Part shown: positions 6,993-13,260 of the stretch, in pieces | How the letters are laid out: every line of letters starts with the position of its first letter | How positions within the stretch are numbered: position 1 is the first letter of the stretch | Assembly: GCF_019029495.1 (NCBI RefSeq) | Contig: NZ_JAERQM010000001.1 | Location: 1,364,001-1,428,000, forward strand | Direction: 5' to 3' | DNA from: Falsiroseomonas oleicola | Lineage (GTDB): Bacteria > Pseudomonadota > Alphaproteobacteria > Acetobacterales > Acetobacteraceae | Length of the DNA: 64,000 nucleotides | The notes under the pieces: generated by a model | What the model saw: only the letters and a program-made list of their open reading frames with translations | Told to the model about the DNA's origin: nothing | Database searches by the model: none | Translations under genes and position numbers: made by a program

Positions 6993-7438
6993 CCAATCGT
7001 CAGGCCGCCTTGTCAACAAGGAGGGCCCTCCGGCACGGCAAGGCGCTGAAATACGCGACCAATGCCCCGTATCGTCAAGCCAATGAGTCACCGCCCGTCA
7101 AACATCCTTGACATCCCACAGGCTCCGTTGCGAGCATGCGGTCGTTACGGCGTTCATGCGCTGTCTGCGAAGAAGCAAGAAGGTCTTCTGGCAGGGTGCG
7201 AACCTTGACCAGATCCCAATGCAAGGCAGCGCGATGAGCCGGCGCCCGGATCTGTCCATGGCGCCGAACAATCCAGGCCGGATACCGATGTCGGTCCGCG
7301 CACTGGAAGACCTGCCGTAGCAAAGAATCGCCGGGAGGGGTGCTCCGGCAGGGTCGTGTGATTCGCCACAGCTTGCTGTGATGTTTCCGCTCGTCCCTGC
7401 ATGCCCAATTTCCGGCATGGGGAGAGGTGGGTTCTGCC
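6993..7438. other. 446-bp spacer upstream of the BLUF gene
   Basis: No frame here looks convincingly coding. A 70-codon plus-strand frame (7108-7320) and overlapping minus frames have unconvincing composition. A TTGACA hexamer occurs near 7109 but without a good -10 element at the right distance. The stretch is somewhat less GC-rich than its neighbours and could hold a decayed gene or regulatory DNA. Confidence 0.4.
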
Positions 7439-8833
7439 ATGGCTTTTTCGGCGGGGATCGGGGCCAGGACAGATGCGCGGCAGGGGTCCACCCCGCCGCC
7501 CCTCGCCACCATCGTCTATCGCAGCCGGGCGGTCGCACCGCTTCCCGGCCCGGCGCTGCGGCATCTCGTCCAGACCGCCCAGGCCCGCAATCAAGGCGAG
7601 GCCATCACGGGCGTGATGCTCTACGACGACACGCATTTCTTCCAGTGGCTGGAAGGCCCCCCCGATGGGGTCGATCGGGTGATGCACTCGATCCACAATG
7701 ACCGGCGCCATACCGACGTCGAGATCCTGTCCCGGCGCAGATCGCCCGCGCGCCGGTTCAGCGGCTGGGACATGAAGTTCGCCGCGCCCGGCGCCAGGAC
7801 ATTCGCCTGGCCGGACGAGGTCATCGAACCACCGGCCGAGGTCATCGAAAACCTGCGGCGCCAGCCCAAGGCCGCGCCCGGCCTTCTGGTCCGGTTGAGC
7901 CCCGTGCCCCTGGATCCCACACAGGCCGGCGGACAGGAAGCAGCCGCGCTGGTGCGGACGGCGCTGGGCCAGGCCTCCGCCGCGGTGCTGAAGTCCGTGA
8001 TCCGCGATTCGGTCATTCCCATGCTGTTGCAGCGGCATGGGCGGGACAGCACCGAGACGATGCCGCCCGCGGTCAATCCCCGGGCCGCGGAACTCGCGGA
8101 GCTCCTCATCGCCTCGGACCAGACGGCCGCCCTCGATCTCATCCGCGAATTGCGGGGGGGCGATGCCGATCCCCGGCACCTCTACGCGCCGCTGTTCGAA
8201 CCGGCGGCGCGGAGCCTGGGCGATCTGTGGAACAACGACATCTGCAGCGAATTCGAGGTGACGCTCGGGCTGTGCCGCCTGCAGACGGCGGTGCGGCTGC
8301 TCGGCGTCGATGTGCCGCGCGGCATTCCGCTCGGCGACCTGCCGAATGTGCTGGTCGCCCCGGTTCCGGGGGAGTTGCACCAGCTTATGGCGGGTCTCGA
8401 TTCCGAATGGCTGACGGGGGCGGGCTGGGCACCCCAGATCGCCTTCCCCACCAGCGACCGGGCTCTGCAGGACCTGCTCTCCGCAAGCTGGATCGATGTG
8501 CTGGACCTGTCGCTGAGTGCGGCGTTCCGGCGGGAGGATTCGCTGCCGCGACTCGCCAAGACCATCGCCAAGGCACGCCGTGCCTCCCGCAACCCGGCGC
8601 TGCTGGTCGTCGTGGGCGGGCGCGCCTTCGTCGAGGACGGCACCGCCGGCCCGGGTGTCGGCGCCGACCTGGCCAGCCGAAGCTCGGAGAACGTCGACCA
8701 GCGCATCATCCAGGGGATGCGGGTCGAGGCAGCGCTGCGGGACGCGGATGGCGCCGGAACATCCCCCCGGCGCCGCATCCCGCCGGTCCGTGGCATGGCA
8801 TCAGCCCCGGGGAAGCACTTGGCCGAGGCCTGA
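7439..8833 (+). CDS. AppA-like blue-light sensor: BLUF domain plus cobalamin/haem (SCHIC)-like domain
   Basis: A 464-residue soluble photoreceptor. The N-terminal BLUF domain (about 20-115) binds FAD: Tyr27, Asn51, Gln69 (FFQWLEG) and Trp110/Met112 (GWDM) have exactly the spacing of AppA Tyr21, Asn45, Gln63, Trp104 and Met106. A helical part (about 215-285) carries LGDLWNND, like the helical cap of B12-binding sensors. A Rossmann-like domain follows (about 300-410) with GELHQLM around His314, at the place of the cobalamin-ligand His of DxHxxG. AppA is a redox- and light-sensitive antirepressor of photosynthesis genes. No Cys-rich tail as in AppA is present. The ATG at 7439 has GAGAGG upstream; a GTG at 7427 is possible. 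Confidence 0.88.
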   Translation: MAFSAGIGARTDARQGSTPPPLATIVYRSRAVAPLPGPALRHLVQTAQARNQGEAITGVMLYDDTHFFQWLEGPPDGVDRVMHSIHNDRRHTDVEILSRRRSPARRFSGWDMKFAAPGARTFAWPDEVIEPPAEVIENLRRQPKAAPGLLVRLSPVPLDPTQAGGQEAAALVRTALGQASAAVLKSVIRDSVIPMLLQRHGRDSTETMPPAVNPRAAELAELLIASDQTAALDLIRELRGGDADPRHLYAPLFEPAARSLGDLWNNDICSEFEVTLGLCRLQTAVRLLGVDVPRGIPLGDLPNVLVAPVPGELHQLMAGLDSEWLTGAGWAPQIAFPTSDRALQDLLSASWIDVLDLSLSAAFRREDSLPRLAKTIAKARRASRNPALLVVVGGRAFVEDGTAGPGVGADLASRSSENVDQRIIQGMRVEAALRDADGAGTSPRRRIPPVRGMASAPGKHLAEA

Positions 8834-10446: not shown

Positions 10447-10478
10447 TTGCGGTTTGTCGAACAGAACATATCATGAAC
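10447..10478 (+). promoter_or_regulatory. LexA-type SOS box overlapping a promoter
   Basis: GAAC at 10464-10467 and GAAC at 10475-10478 are separated by exactly 7 bases, the alphaproteobacterial LexA operator pattern (GAAC-N7-GAAC, equivalent to GTTC-N7-GTTC). A promoter-like TTGCGG (10447-10452), 16 bases, then TATCAT (10469-10474) overlaps it, so LexA binding would cover the -10 element. The gene start is 22 bases downstream. LexA control is inferred from this pattern and from the DNA-repair nature of the operon. Confidence 0.8.
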
Positions 10479-10500
10479 TAAACCGCCGGGACCCGCTTCA

Positions 10501-11751
10501 ATGGAATTGCTGCGCAAGCTGGAGATCCTCGCCGATGCCGCGAAATACGACGCCTCCTGCGCCTCCTCCGGCACCAGCCGGCGCAACAGCCTGAAGGGCG
10601 GGCTGGGCAGCACGGAGGGCAGCGGCATCTGCCATGCCTATGCGCCGGATGGGCGCTGCATCTCGCTGCTCAAGCTGCTGCTGACCAATGCCTGCGTCTT
10701 CGACTGCGCCTATTGCATCAACCGCGCCTCCTCCAACACGCCACGCGCGCGCTTCACGGTGCAGGAGGTGGTGGACCTCACCCTCAGCTTCTATCGCCGC
10801 AACACGATCGAGGGGCTGTTCCTGTCCTCCGGCATCATCCGCTCCCCGGACTATACGATGGAGCAGCTGGTGCGCGTGGCGCGAAGCCTGCGGCTGGATC
10901 ACGGCTTCCGCGGCTATATCCACCTGAAGACCATCCCCGACGCGGCGCCGGAACTGCTGGCGGAGGCTGGGCTGCATGCCGACCGGCTGTCCATCAACAT
11001 GGAGCTGCCGACCGTCGCCGGCCTGGAATCCCTCGCCCCTGAAAAGAATTTTTCCCGCATCCGCCATGCCATGGCCGGGCTGCGGACGCGGATCGAGGGG
11101 GCGCAGGATGAGTTGAAAACGGCGCGGCGCGCATCGCCGCAAAAATTCGCGCCGGCGGGGCAGAGCACGCAGATGATCGTCGGCGCCGATGGCGCGGATG
11201 ACGGCGCCATCCTCGGCATGGCGGGTGATCTTTACGCCGGCTATCGCATGCGGCGGGTCTACTACTCCGCCTATTCGCCGATCCCCGATGCCTCCCGCCT
11301 GTTGCCACCCGCCGCGCCGCCGCTGCTGCGGGAACACCGGCTGTACCAGGCGGATTGGCTGCTGCGCTTCTACGGCTTCTCCCAGGCGGAAATCCTCGCC
11401 GGCGGCCAGGGCGGCATGCTGGATCTGGAATTCGATCCGAAAACCGCCTGGGCGCTGCAATCCCGCCAGGACTTTCCCGTGGATGCGAACACCGCGCCGC
11501 GGGAGGCGCTGCTGCGCGTGCCCGGCCTGGGCGCGAAAACGGTCGAGCGGCTGATCTCGGCCCGGCGCCACAGCCGGCTGCGCGTCGCCGACCTGGCGCG
11601 GCTGCGGGTCAGCCTGGGCAAGGTGCTGCCCTTCCTGGTGCTGGCGGACCATGTGCCGCGCGGGCTGGACAGCGGCGGTCTGCGCGACCGGCTGCGCCCG
11701 GCCACCGCCTTCGCCGCCGCCGCCCGGCCGGTGCAAATGGCGCTGTTCTGA
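10501..11751 (+). CDS. Putative DNA modification/repair radical SAM protein
   Basis: A 416-residue radical SAM enzyme of the family routinely found beside UdgX-type proteins. The 4Fe-4S cluster motif is CVFDCAYC (CxxxCxxC, about residues 64-71). The barrel follows, and a C-terminal helix-hairpin-helix-like stretch (LLRVPGLGAKTVERLISARR, about 340-360) suggests DNA binding. The reaction is not known; the family name is a genomic-context prediction. It begins 22 bases after the SOS box, and its stop overlaps the next ATG by one base (TGATG), so the pair is translationally coupled. Damage induction is likely. Confidence 0.9.
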   Translation: MELLRKLEILADAAKYDASCASSGTSRRNSLKGGLGSTEGSGICHAYAPDGRCISLLKLLLTNACVFDCAYCINRASSNTPRARFTVQEVVDLTLSFYRRNTIEGLFLSSGIIRSPDYTMEQLVRVARSLRLDHGFRGYIHLKTIPDAAPELLAEAGLHADRLSINMELPTVAGLESLAPEKNFSRIRHAMAGLRTRIEGAQDELKTARRASPQKFAPAGQSTQMIVGADGADDGAILGMAGDLYAGYRMRRVYYSAYSPIPDASRLLPPAAPPLLREHRLYQADWLLRFYGFSQAEILAGGQGGMLDLEFDPKTAWALQSRQDFPVDANTAPREALLRVPGLGAKTVERLISARRHSRLRVADLARLRVSLGKVLPFLVLADHVPRGLDSGGLRDRLRPATAFAAAARPVQMALF

Positions 11752-13226
11752 TGCGCTGCCTGGCGGTGACGCTGCCCGGCCCGGCCGACTTCCTCGCCTG
11801 GCGCCAGGCGGCGCGCGGGCTGGTGGCGGCCGATATCCCGCCGGAACAGGCGGAATGGGTGGTGGCGGGCGACATGCCGGGGCTGCTGGCGGAGGCGCCG
11901 GCACCGCCCCCTTCCGCCGCGCCCTTCAGCGTGCCGCGCGCCTTCCTCGACCAGGCGGAGATCGCCATCCGCCACAGCGACCCGGAACGCTTCGCCCTGC
12001 TCTACGGCCTGCTCTGGCGAATCACGCGGGGTGAACGCCATGTGATGCAGGCGGCGACCGACCCGGCGGTGATCCGCCTCGGCGCCCTGGCCAAGGCGGT
12101 GCGGCGCGACGCCCACAAGATGCACGCCTTCGTCCGATTCCGGGAGGTGCAGGCGGAGGACGGCGCGCGCCACATCGCCTGGTTCGAACCGGACCATCAT
12201 ATCGAGGAGGCCGAGGCCGGCTTCTTCGTCCGCCGCTTCGCCTCGCTCCGCTGGTCCATCGTCACGCCGCGCCGCAGCGTCGCCTGGGATGGCGCGGCGC
12301 TGTCCTTCGGCCCGGGCGGGCGCCGCGCCGATGTGCCGCCGGATGATGCGACGGAGCCGCTGTGGCGCACCTATTACGGCGCCATCTTCAACCCGGCCCG
12401 GCTGAAGCCCGGCGCGATGCGGGCGGAGATGCCGCGCAAATACTGGCGCAACCTGCCGGAGGCGGCGGAGATCCCGCGCCTGCTGGCGGAAGCCCCCGGC
12501 CGCGTGGCGGCGATGGCCGCGCTGCTGGCGCCGAATCCCCGGCCGCAGCGGCAAGTGCATCTTTCCGCGCCGGCCCGCGTTGCGCCGGATATGCGGACCC
12601 CGATCGAGCCCCCCACCGATCCGGCCATGGCCCTGGCCGCCCTGCGCGAGGAGTTGCTGGCGCGCCCCGACCTGCCGGCGTTCAGCGCCCGCGCGACGCA
12701 GCCTGTCTTCGGGGAGGGTCCCGTCGGCGCGGCGCTGATGTTCGTCGGCGAACAGCCGGGGGATGAGGAGGATATCGCCGGCCGTCCCTTCGTCGGACCC
12801 GCCGGAAGGCTGCTCGACCGCGCCTTGGCGCAGGCCGGCGTGGCGCGAAGCGAGGCCTATCTGACGAACGCGGTGAAGCACTTCAAATTCACCGCCACCG
12901 GCAAGCGTCGCCTGCACCAATCCCCGGACGCCGGCGACATCACCTACTACCGCCCCTTCCTGGCGCGGGAGGTGACGGCGGTGGCGCCACGCCTGGTGGT
13001 GGCGCTGGGCGCCACGGCGCTGGCGGCTCTGGCGGCTCTGACGGGCCGGAAGCTGCCGGTGCTGAAGACCCGTGGCCAGGTGGTGACCGGCCTCACCCGC
13101 CATCCGGTCTTCGCCACCATCCATCCGAGCTATCTGCTGCGCCTGCCCGACGAGGGCGCGCAGCAGGCCGGCTTTGTCGACTTCGTGGCGGACCTGCGGG
13201 CGGCGGCGGCACAGGCGGCGGCCTAA
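11751..13226 (+). CDS. udgX: DUF4130 / UdgX fusion: uracil-DNA binding protein
   Basis: A 491-residue two-domain protein. The N-terminal half (about 1-260) is the DUF4130 domain, often paired with radical SAM genes. The C-terminal half (about 290-490) is a UdgX-type family-4-like uracil-DNA glycosylase. It has GEQPGDEED (from residue 333), the UdgX R-loop KRRLHQ (385-390) and HPSYLLR (His458). In mycobacterial UdgX the His of KRRIHQ forms a covalent bond to the DNA sugar after uracil release, giving a suicide complex; His389 is the equivalent here. The start overlaps the radical-SAM stop. The frame extends upstream, but the ATG at 11751 is clear. Likely under the same LexA control. Confidence 0.92.
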   Translation: MRCLAVTLPGPADFLAWRQAARGLVAADIPPEQAEWVVAGDMPGLLAEAPAPPPSAAPFSVPRAFLDQAEIAIRHSDPERFALLYGLLWRITRGERHVMQAATDPAVIRLGALAKAVRRDAHKMHAFVRFREVQAEDGARHIAWFEPDHHIEEAEAGFFVRRFASLRWSIVTPRRSVAWDGAALSFGPGGRRADVPPDDATEPLWRTYYGAIFNPARLKPGAMRAEMPRKYWRNLPEAAEIPRLLAEAPGRVAAMAALLAPNPRPQRQVHLSAPARVAPDMRTPIEPPTDPAMALAALREELLARPDLPAFSARATQPVFGEGPVGAALMFVGEQPGDEEDIAGRPFVGPAGRLLDRALAQAGVARSEAYLTNAVKHFKFTATGKRRLHQSPDAGDITYYRPFLAREVTAVAPRLVVALGATALAALAALTGRKLPVLKTRGQVVTGLTRHPVFATIHPSYLLRLPDEGAQQAGFVDFVADLRAAAAQAAA

Positions 13227-13260
13227 ACCATGATCCGTAAACACGGATCATGGTTTAGGC
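13221..13260. terminator. Perfect 17-bp hairpin at the udgX stop
   Basis: GCCTAAACCATGATCCG (13221-13237) and its exact complement (13244-13260) flank the 6-base loop TAAACA. The left arm includes the udgX stop TAA. TTTGCT follows, a poor T-run. It lies between convergent genes, so it may work as a bidirectional terminator, or it may be a dispersed palindrome. Confidence 0.6.

Follow-up and report, generated by a model that had tools for sequence, protein, structure and literature searches.

A LexA-boxed radical SAM/DUF4130-UdgX operon of Falsiroseomonas oleicola and the conserved clamp-binding-like tail of its radical SAM protein

Introduction

Why would a radical S-adenosylmethionine (SAM) protein share an operon with UdgX? 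Proteins of the UdgX family remove uracil from DNA and then cap the abasic site covalently. The question is raised by a two-gene operon of Falsiroseomonas oleicola (Acetobacteraceae), found in a 64,000-nucleotide stretch of contig NZ_JAERQM010000001.1 (positions 1,364,001 to 1,428,000, forward strand, assembly GCF_019029495.1). We call this whole stretch the window, and coordinates refer to it unless a locus is named. A preliminary description, made from the letters of the DNA, saw in the operon a damage-inducible pathway where the radical SAM protein may process or release the UdgX-DNA adduct. As shown below, LexA control is strongly supported in alphaproteobacteria, while adduct release finds no support. 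Our preferred reading, to which we give a probability of roughly 0.6, is that the radical SAM protein and DUF4130 make up a repair enzyme, induced by the SOS response and docked on the sliding clamp, to which UdgX adds an optional uracil lock.

COG4277 is, we presume, the radical SAM family TIGR03916. SOS control of a radical SAM/uracil-DNA glycosylase (UDG) gene pair is already in print and is not new: the two-gene COG1573-COG4277 UDG operon has been placed in a predicted SOS network in Bacteroidetes, with earlier reports cited from Verrucomicrobia and Alphaproteobacteria (PMC8565304). The operon described here shares with it the two genes, the UDG and the inferred LexA regulation; it differs in its GAAC-N7-GAAC box, its Acetobacteraceae host, the fusion of DUF4130 to UdgX, and a clamp-like tail that goes unmentioned in the available text of PMC8565304. 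DUF4130 itself has been noted together with SplB-like radical SAM proteins and UDGs (PMC3765255), and a gene annotated as a TIGR03916-type radical SAM protein is upregulated in desiccated Acinetobacter (PMC13130816). A word search in the available text of two UdgX structure papers finds no mention of SOS, DUF4130 or an operon.

Results

The operon carries a conserved LexA box

The first gene (10501..11751, + strand) encodes a radical SAM protein of 416 residues, a member of TIGR03916 (rSAM_link_UDG) with 551.5 bits (E = 1.4e-165) against a curated cut-off of 343.5. Its TGA stop codon (11749-11751) overlaps the ATG (11751-11753) of the second gene (11751..13226, + strand), which encodes a DUF4130-UdgX fusion of 491 residues. 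This overlap, recognized in the preliminary description, suggests that translation of the two genes is coupled.

Upstream lies GAACATATCATGAAC (GAAC-ATATCAT-GAAC; 10464..10478, + strand), a perfect copy of the alphaproteobacterial LexA motif GTTC-N7-GTTC, which is equivalent to GAAC-N7-GAAC (PMC8565304, PMC12700426). As first described, 22 nt separate the box from the radical SAM start codon at 10501. Taken alone, the box proves little: the window holds no other perfect match, but shuffled windows have 0.73 on average (at least one in 52 of 100 shuffles), and perfect matches number 87 across the genome, where the reversed control pattern occurs 51 times. The bare match in the window is not significant; its significance comes from conservation.

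We compared three partly overlapping alphaproteobacterial sets (L109 and L171, for instance, are one contig). From the own family, where 74 of 200 genomes score over the cut-off, 70 loci were used, the genome under study and three fragmentary ones (G088, G120, G146) being left out. The class contributed 24 loci; of its 385 genomes, 25 score above the cut-off, the own genome among them. The third set holds the 58 alphaproteobacterial operons among 80 radical SAM loci of named genomes, which were assigned to alpha, beta or gamma by their titles. The box counts leave out L080, which has no upstream sequence, as well as L166 and L169, each either a fragment or below the cut-off. A perfect box lies no more than 150 nt from the start in 54/70, 23/24 and 53/58 operons, respectively. 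Dinucleotide shuffles yield means of 0.22, 0.15 and 0.31, and at most 2; equal-length stretches inside genes contain the box in 0/560, 0/189 and 1/464 cases. After merging of identical upstream regions, 125 of 144 alphaproteobacterial operons retain it, and it is present in all 25 class loci of a separate reading, partly the same as those of the class set. The preliminary description had suggested looking for the same box ahead of orthologous operons; there it is, mostly 16-100 nt ahead of the radical SAM gene across the class.

The spacer of the box is constrained too. In 103 distinct upstream regions aligned on the forward box, its positions 1-4 are A (0.90), T (0.76), A (0.86) and T (0.63), so that a TATNNT-like -10 core is conserved inside the box; a weak T/G enrichment is seen at the -35 distance. 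The core reads TATCAT in F. oleicola (10469-10474, + strand) and is preceded by a possible, weak -35 element, TTGCGG (10447..10452, + strand), with three of six matches to TTGACA. The promoter TTGCGG-N16-TATCAT of the preliminary description thus holds as letters and spacing, with TATCAT in the box, but not as a sigma-70 promoter: the consensus promoter scan accepted no site.

The same box stands before other SOS genes of this genome. For 18 of its 87 perfect boxes we examined the following open reading frame (ORF), and six ORFs were scanned. The box GAACCTACATAGAAC is found 19 nt ahead of the listed ORF start of lexA (L220; TIGR00498, 169.1 bits, cut-off 110.95), and another lies 17 nt ahead of the listed uvrA ORF. 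At parE and at an ImuA-like gene (58.3 bits, below its 150-bit cut-off), a perfect box overlaps the listed start. Both marks of an alphaproteobacterial LexA regulon, a conserved promoter box and a LexA of the same genome with the same box, are therefore apparent from the sequence. As a side observation, a RES/ParT-type toxin gene of this genome (L017, C1:970547) starts 30 nt past a perfect GAAC-N7-GAAC box.

None of the 21 named beta and gamma operons has GAAC-N7-GAAC. In its place, the canonical LexA motif CTGT-N8-ACAG occurs in 3/5 named beta operons, in 3/5 further loci outside the class (L308, L311, L312) and in a Caballeronia plasmid copy (L323). The expectation of some 0.7 perfect matches per 64 kb and the genome-wide ratio of 87 to 51 would let the box of our operon pass for a chance match or another regulator's site; against its conserved position, the same box before lexA and the exchange for CTGT-N8-ACAG in some beta and other operons, we hold this to be very improbable. 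LexA control of the operon in alphaproteobacteria is well supported, because the box is conserved, some beta operons carry another LexA motif and SOS genes of the genome share the box. Together, the motifs suggest that the operon came under SOS control via different LexA motifs in different lineages, the gamma group excepted.

In that group, a palindrome TCTCA-N5-TGAGA is found at about -39 in 14 of the 16 named loci with enough upstream sequence (L048, L050, L056, L057, L060, L062, L073, L074, L093, L095, L100, L101, L103, L106). It is doubtful as a LexA box: a Stenotrophomonas genome contains only four such sites, and apart from the one at the radical SAM operon they adjoin no SOS genes, as judged from ORF translations read without a family search.

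The radical SAM gene travels with DUF4130

Co-occurrence was counted in 279 Pseudomonadota genomes, drafts included, at curated cut-offs. The radical SAM gene is present in 48, DUF4130 in 50 and UdgX in 47. All 48 radical SAM genomes have DUF4130, and only 2 of the 50 DUF4130 genomes are devoid of the radical SAM gene. UdgX is missing from 11 of the 48 radical SAM genomes, and the radical SAM gene from 10 of the 47 with UdgX. The radical SAM/DUF4130 pair is seen in Pseudomonadota, Bacteroidota and Bacillota. Caulobacter vibrioides, which served as a control genome, scores above the TIGR03915 cut-off and also has a TIGR03916 match.

These counts bear on a possible role of the radical SAM protein in processing or releasing the covalent adduct of UdgX and DNA. 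Operon and fusion tie the two proteins together, 37 of the 48 radical SAM genomes also have UdgX, and PMC10359453 leaves the resolution of the adduct open, suggesting RecA-dependent pathways or proteases. However, the radical SAM gene follows DUF4130 rather than UdgX. Besides the 11/48 and 10/47 genomes with one and not the other, the Bacteroidota pair and two Bacillota pairs that were examined have no UDG match, and the UdgX-free alphaproteobacterial pairs L143 (G449) and L295 (G738) keep the LexA box. Adduct release is thus unlikely as a general function of the radical SAM protein, at perhaps one chance in ten; the fused members are less constrained by this argument.

The box follows the same partition. 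Among 11 standalone UdgX loci, GAAC-N7-GAAC occurs between -400 and +150 in a single one, L245 (G638). There, UdgX is accompanied by a decayed DUF4130 remnant and still preceded by a perfect LexA box, although the genome lacks the radical SAM gene; the locus looks like a fossil of operon decay. Of the ten boxless loci, three are second copies in genomes with a full operon and two (L328, L329) lie outside the class, neither of which has CTGT-N8-ACAG. Since standalone UdgX is mostly boxless, whereas DUF4130-UdgX is boxed in G755 and G771, two genomes where the radical SAM gene was not found, we infer that SOS control belongs to the unit of radical SAM and DUF4130, UdgX being an add-on.

Two side observations concern gene order and plasmids. 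In 13 loci looked at for genes between radical SAM and DUF4130, two Novosphingobium genomes have a hemerythrin-domain gene ahead of DUF4130-UdgX (L089:5301-5780, L105:5280-5759), and a similar ORF is found at class locus L150. Matches to the radical SAM gene occur in 158 of 72,556 plasmid records, including 58 from Phaeobacter and 15 from Paracoccus.

The radical SAM protein ends in a clamp-binding-like motif

The radical SAM protein terminates in QMALF (residues 412-416; 11734..11748, + strand), which is of the QxxLF type. The clamp-binding consensus is QL[S/D]LF or QxxLF (PMC12309361). In the structure model, the tail (residues 404-416) is predicted to be disordered, with a low predicted local distance difference test (pLDDT) score. 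The glutamine is invariant in 45 aligned orthologues.

We collected 177 distinct C-termini from 241 loci and searched their last 10 residues. QLxLF-like motifs are found in 69, QxxLF in 29 and QLxL in 60, in total 158/177; shuffling of the tail residues gives 0.4, 1.9 and 11.6, respectively. QxxLF ends are seen in 27 of the 45 aligned radical SAM proteins, in none of 38 partner proteins and in none of 2672 background frames (stop-to-stop, at least 120 codons, many of them not genes); for QLxL the figures are 31/45, 0/38 and 12/2672. Two Bacillota homologues carry QLSLFD and QLSIFD, and a homologue on a phage-labelled scaffold QLSFFD; in a homologue from Gemmatimonadota, which scores under the family cut-off across the scanned range, the sequence is QLSLWD. 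The tail is also kept by UdgX-free pairs (L143, L284, L285, L290, L295, L308, L312).

Known clients of the beta sliding clamp, such as PolC and transposases, carry the motif at the extreme C-terminus, as the radical SAM protein does (PMC12309361, PMC4549789). In Acidiphilium, an alphaproteobacterium, the clamp binds a C-terminal motif of this kind on a transposase (PMC4549789). A non-exhaustive search of titles and the beginnings of abstracts revealed neither a radical SAM DNA-repair enzyme among clamp clients nor a link of this family to the clamp. The conserved clamp-binding-like tail is a new, testable element, and its motif suggests that the protein may dock on the clamp. The fuller claim is that this widespread radical SAM enzyme is a sliding-clamp client. 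Induced by the SOS response and docked on DnaN through QxxLF, it would attack damaged DNA at the fork by radical chemistry; DUF4130 would be its near-obligate partner and UdgX an extra. We put this forward tentatively, at slightly less than even odds.

Fold and cysteines of the radical SAM protein

The radical SAM cluster motif CX3CX2C (C65, C69, C72; 10693..10716, + strand) is invariant in the 45 sequences; the Pfam Radical_SAM profile scores 28.9 bits, slightly below its cut-off of 29.5. Three further cysteines of the N-terminal part, C20, C44 and C53 (10558..10659, + strand), are equally invariant. They are kept in the Bacteroidota and the two Bacillota homologues and absent from the divergent Gemmatimonadota one, and their conservation suggests an auxiliary cluster or a metal site. 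After C72, no cysteine is invariant or nearly invariant in the 45 sequences. Near the C-terminus, at about residues 334-356 (11500..11568, + strand), weak ComEA/RuvA profile matches (E 0.03-0.5) mark a putative helix-hairpin-helix segment.

The predicted structure has a mean pLDDT of 84.4, with low values mainly at residues 21-51 and 404-416; in the poorly modelled N-terminal cysteine region, they fall at residues 21-43 and 47-51. We compared the model with known folds, taking the best 50 of 70 matches with E up to 0.001. HydE, pyruvate formate-lyase (PFL)-activating enzyme and lipoyl synthase come closest, and these best 50 include no spore photoproduct lyase. As these are the closest folds, a reaction of the spore photoproduct lyase type is not favoured by the model.

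Spore photoproduct lyase uses a conserved catalytic cysteine after the cluster motif. A related explanation, in which the protein would directly reverse UV-induced or oxidised thymine lesions as SplB does and have no particular tie to the clamp, draws on an earlier grouping with SplB-like proteins (PMC3765255), on the SOS regulation of SplB itself in several species (PMC8565304) and on the radical SAM fold, SOS control and possible DNA-binding helix-hairpin-helix of our protein. The likeness is that of radical SAM enzymes tied to DNA repair and SOS (PMC8565304, PMC3765255). The radical SAM protein nonetheless differs from SplB in its closest folds, the lyase not figuring in the best 50 of 70 matches, in its putative helix-hairpin-helix, in its three N-terminal cysteines, in having no invariant cysteine after C72, and in its conserved clamp-like tail, which direct reversal leaves unexplained. 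We judge this explanation unlikely, somewhat less so than adduct release.

The DUF4130-UdgX fusion

The second protein matches two curated profiles. Its DUF4130 part scores 195.7 bits with TIGR03915 (cut-off 112.25) and its UdgX part 251.8 bits with TIGR03914 (cut-off 189.95); Pfam places DUF4130 at residues 78-237 (11982..12461, + strand) and UDG at residues 320-483 (12708..13199, + strand). Invariant polar residues of DUF4130 are D120, H122, K123, R129, E146 and H149. A sequence search gave no solved relative of this domain. With the whole protein, the best 50 fold matches are nearly all uracil- or thymine-DNA glycosylases, 9qhs and 3ikb being the exceptions; aligned ranges were not given, and a DUF4130 match beyond the best 50 is possible.

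Could DUF4130 be the DNA-acting partner, modified or activated by the radical SAM protein? The near-obligate pairing (48/48 and 48/50), the many invariant polar residues of DUF4130 and the presence of PFL-activating enzyme among the closest folds would agree with it. The radical SAM protein, however, has its own helix-hairpin-helix and clamp-like elements, and two genomes keep DUF4130 without it. This possibility seems to us doubtful, about on a par with direct reversal.

UdgX entries are the best matches of the glycosylase domain by both sequence and fold, those of Mycobacterium smegmatis where the title names a species. The GEQPG, KRRxH and HPS..LR motifs are kept, including the R-loop KRRLHQ (12903..12920, + strand). 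M. smegmatis UdgX cross-links covalently to uracil-DNA through the histidine of this loop (PMC10359453). By the KRRLHQ match, His389 (12915-12917), already singled out in the preliminary description, is the predicted cross-linking residue of our protein. Of 217 loci that match UDG, in a set with overlaps, 215 retain the reactive histidine; it is replaced in L124 and not covered in L126. In contrast to the single-domain M. smegmatis chains of about 205-229 residues in the PDB, UdgX is here fused to DUF4130 and coupled to a radical SAM gene.

Surroundings of the operon

A perfect 18-bp inverted repeat with a 4-nt loop spans the UdgX stop codon (13221..13260) and is a candidate transcript end. 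Its core occurs once in the genome, and no terminator was called there because it has no T-run. At gathering thresholds, Rfam finds a single tRNA in the window, away from the operon, and neither protein of the operon matches a PADLOC defence model. Elsewhere in the window, 7427-8833 encodes a BLUF-domain protein that weakly matches AppA-SCHIC.

Discussion

RecA-stimulated cleavage of LexA is the established mechanism of SOS induction. In the mechanism that we propose, LexA bound at 10464-10478, as box conservation implies, would cover the -10 region and repress the operon; DNA damage, by RecA-stimulated LexA cleavage, would release it. The radical SAM protein and DUF4130 would form the core repair unit. 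The former would dock on the beta sliding clamp via its C-terminal QxxLF tail, grip DNA via its helix-hairpin-helix and act by radical chemistry on damaged bases where replication is stalled or gapped, beside SOS polymerases. UdgX would be an accessory domain fused to DUF4130.

Several observations weigh against this proposal. Sixteen of the 70 own-family operons are without a perfect box, 13 of them in one clade of 23; eight of the 16 have a box with one mismatch within 50 nt, and on the family tree the boxless state needs six changes, four of them forced by well-supported branches. The 16 named gamma operons contain neither CTGT-N8-ACAG (0/16) nor TTAG-N6-TACTA (0/16), the latter being presumably the Xanthomonas LexA motif. 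Among the 18 of 87 perfect boxes examined in this genome, recA is not one of the genes identified. The main text on the Caulobacter SOS regulon, of 47 genes, is free of the words radical SAM, uracil, UdgX and glycosylase (PMC12700426), as is the main text of PMC13384398 of radical SAM, uracil and glycosylase. G755 (L331) and G771 (L330) keep DUF4130-UdgX with its LexA box, the radical SAM gene not being found in the genome, so that DUF4130 may act alone. As for the tail, 19 of the 177 C-termini have no motif in their last 10 residues, at least seven of them having it slightly further in, and the Bacteroidota tail QLILEF is off-consensus. Finally, no recognised DNA-acting radical SAM enzyme is found in the best 50 of 70 fold matches.

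The papers that we found give no reaction for the radical SAM/DUF4130 pair. Set apart from UdgX, the pair turns the search for a substrate away from the UdgX adduct. If our proposal is true, the clamp-docking tail would place the radical SAM/DUF4130 pair at the replication fork, together with the SOS polymerases.

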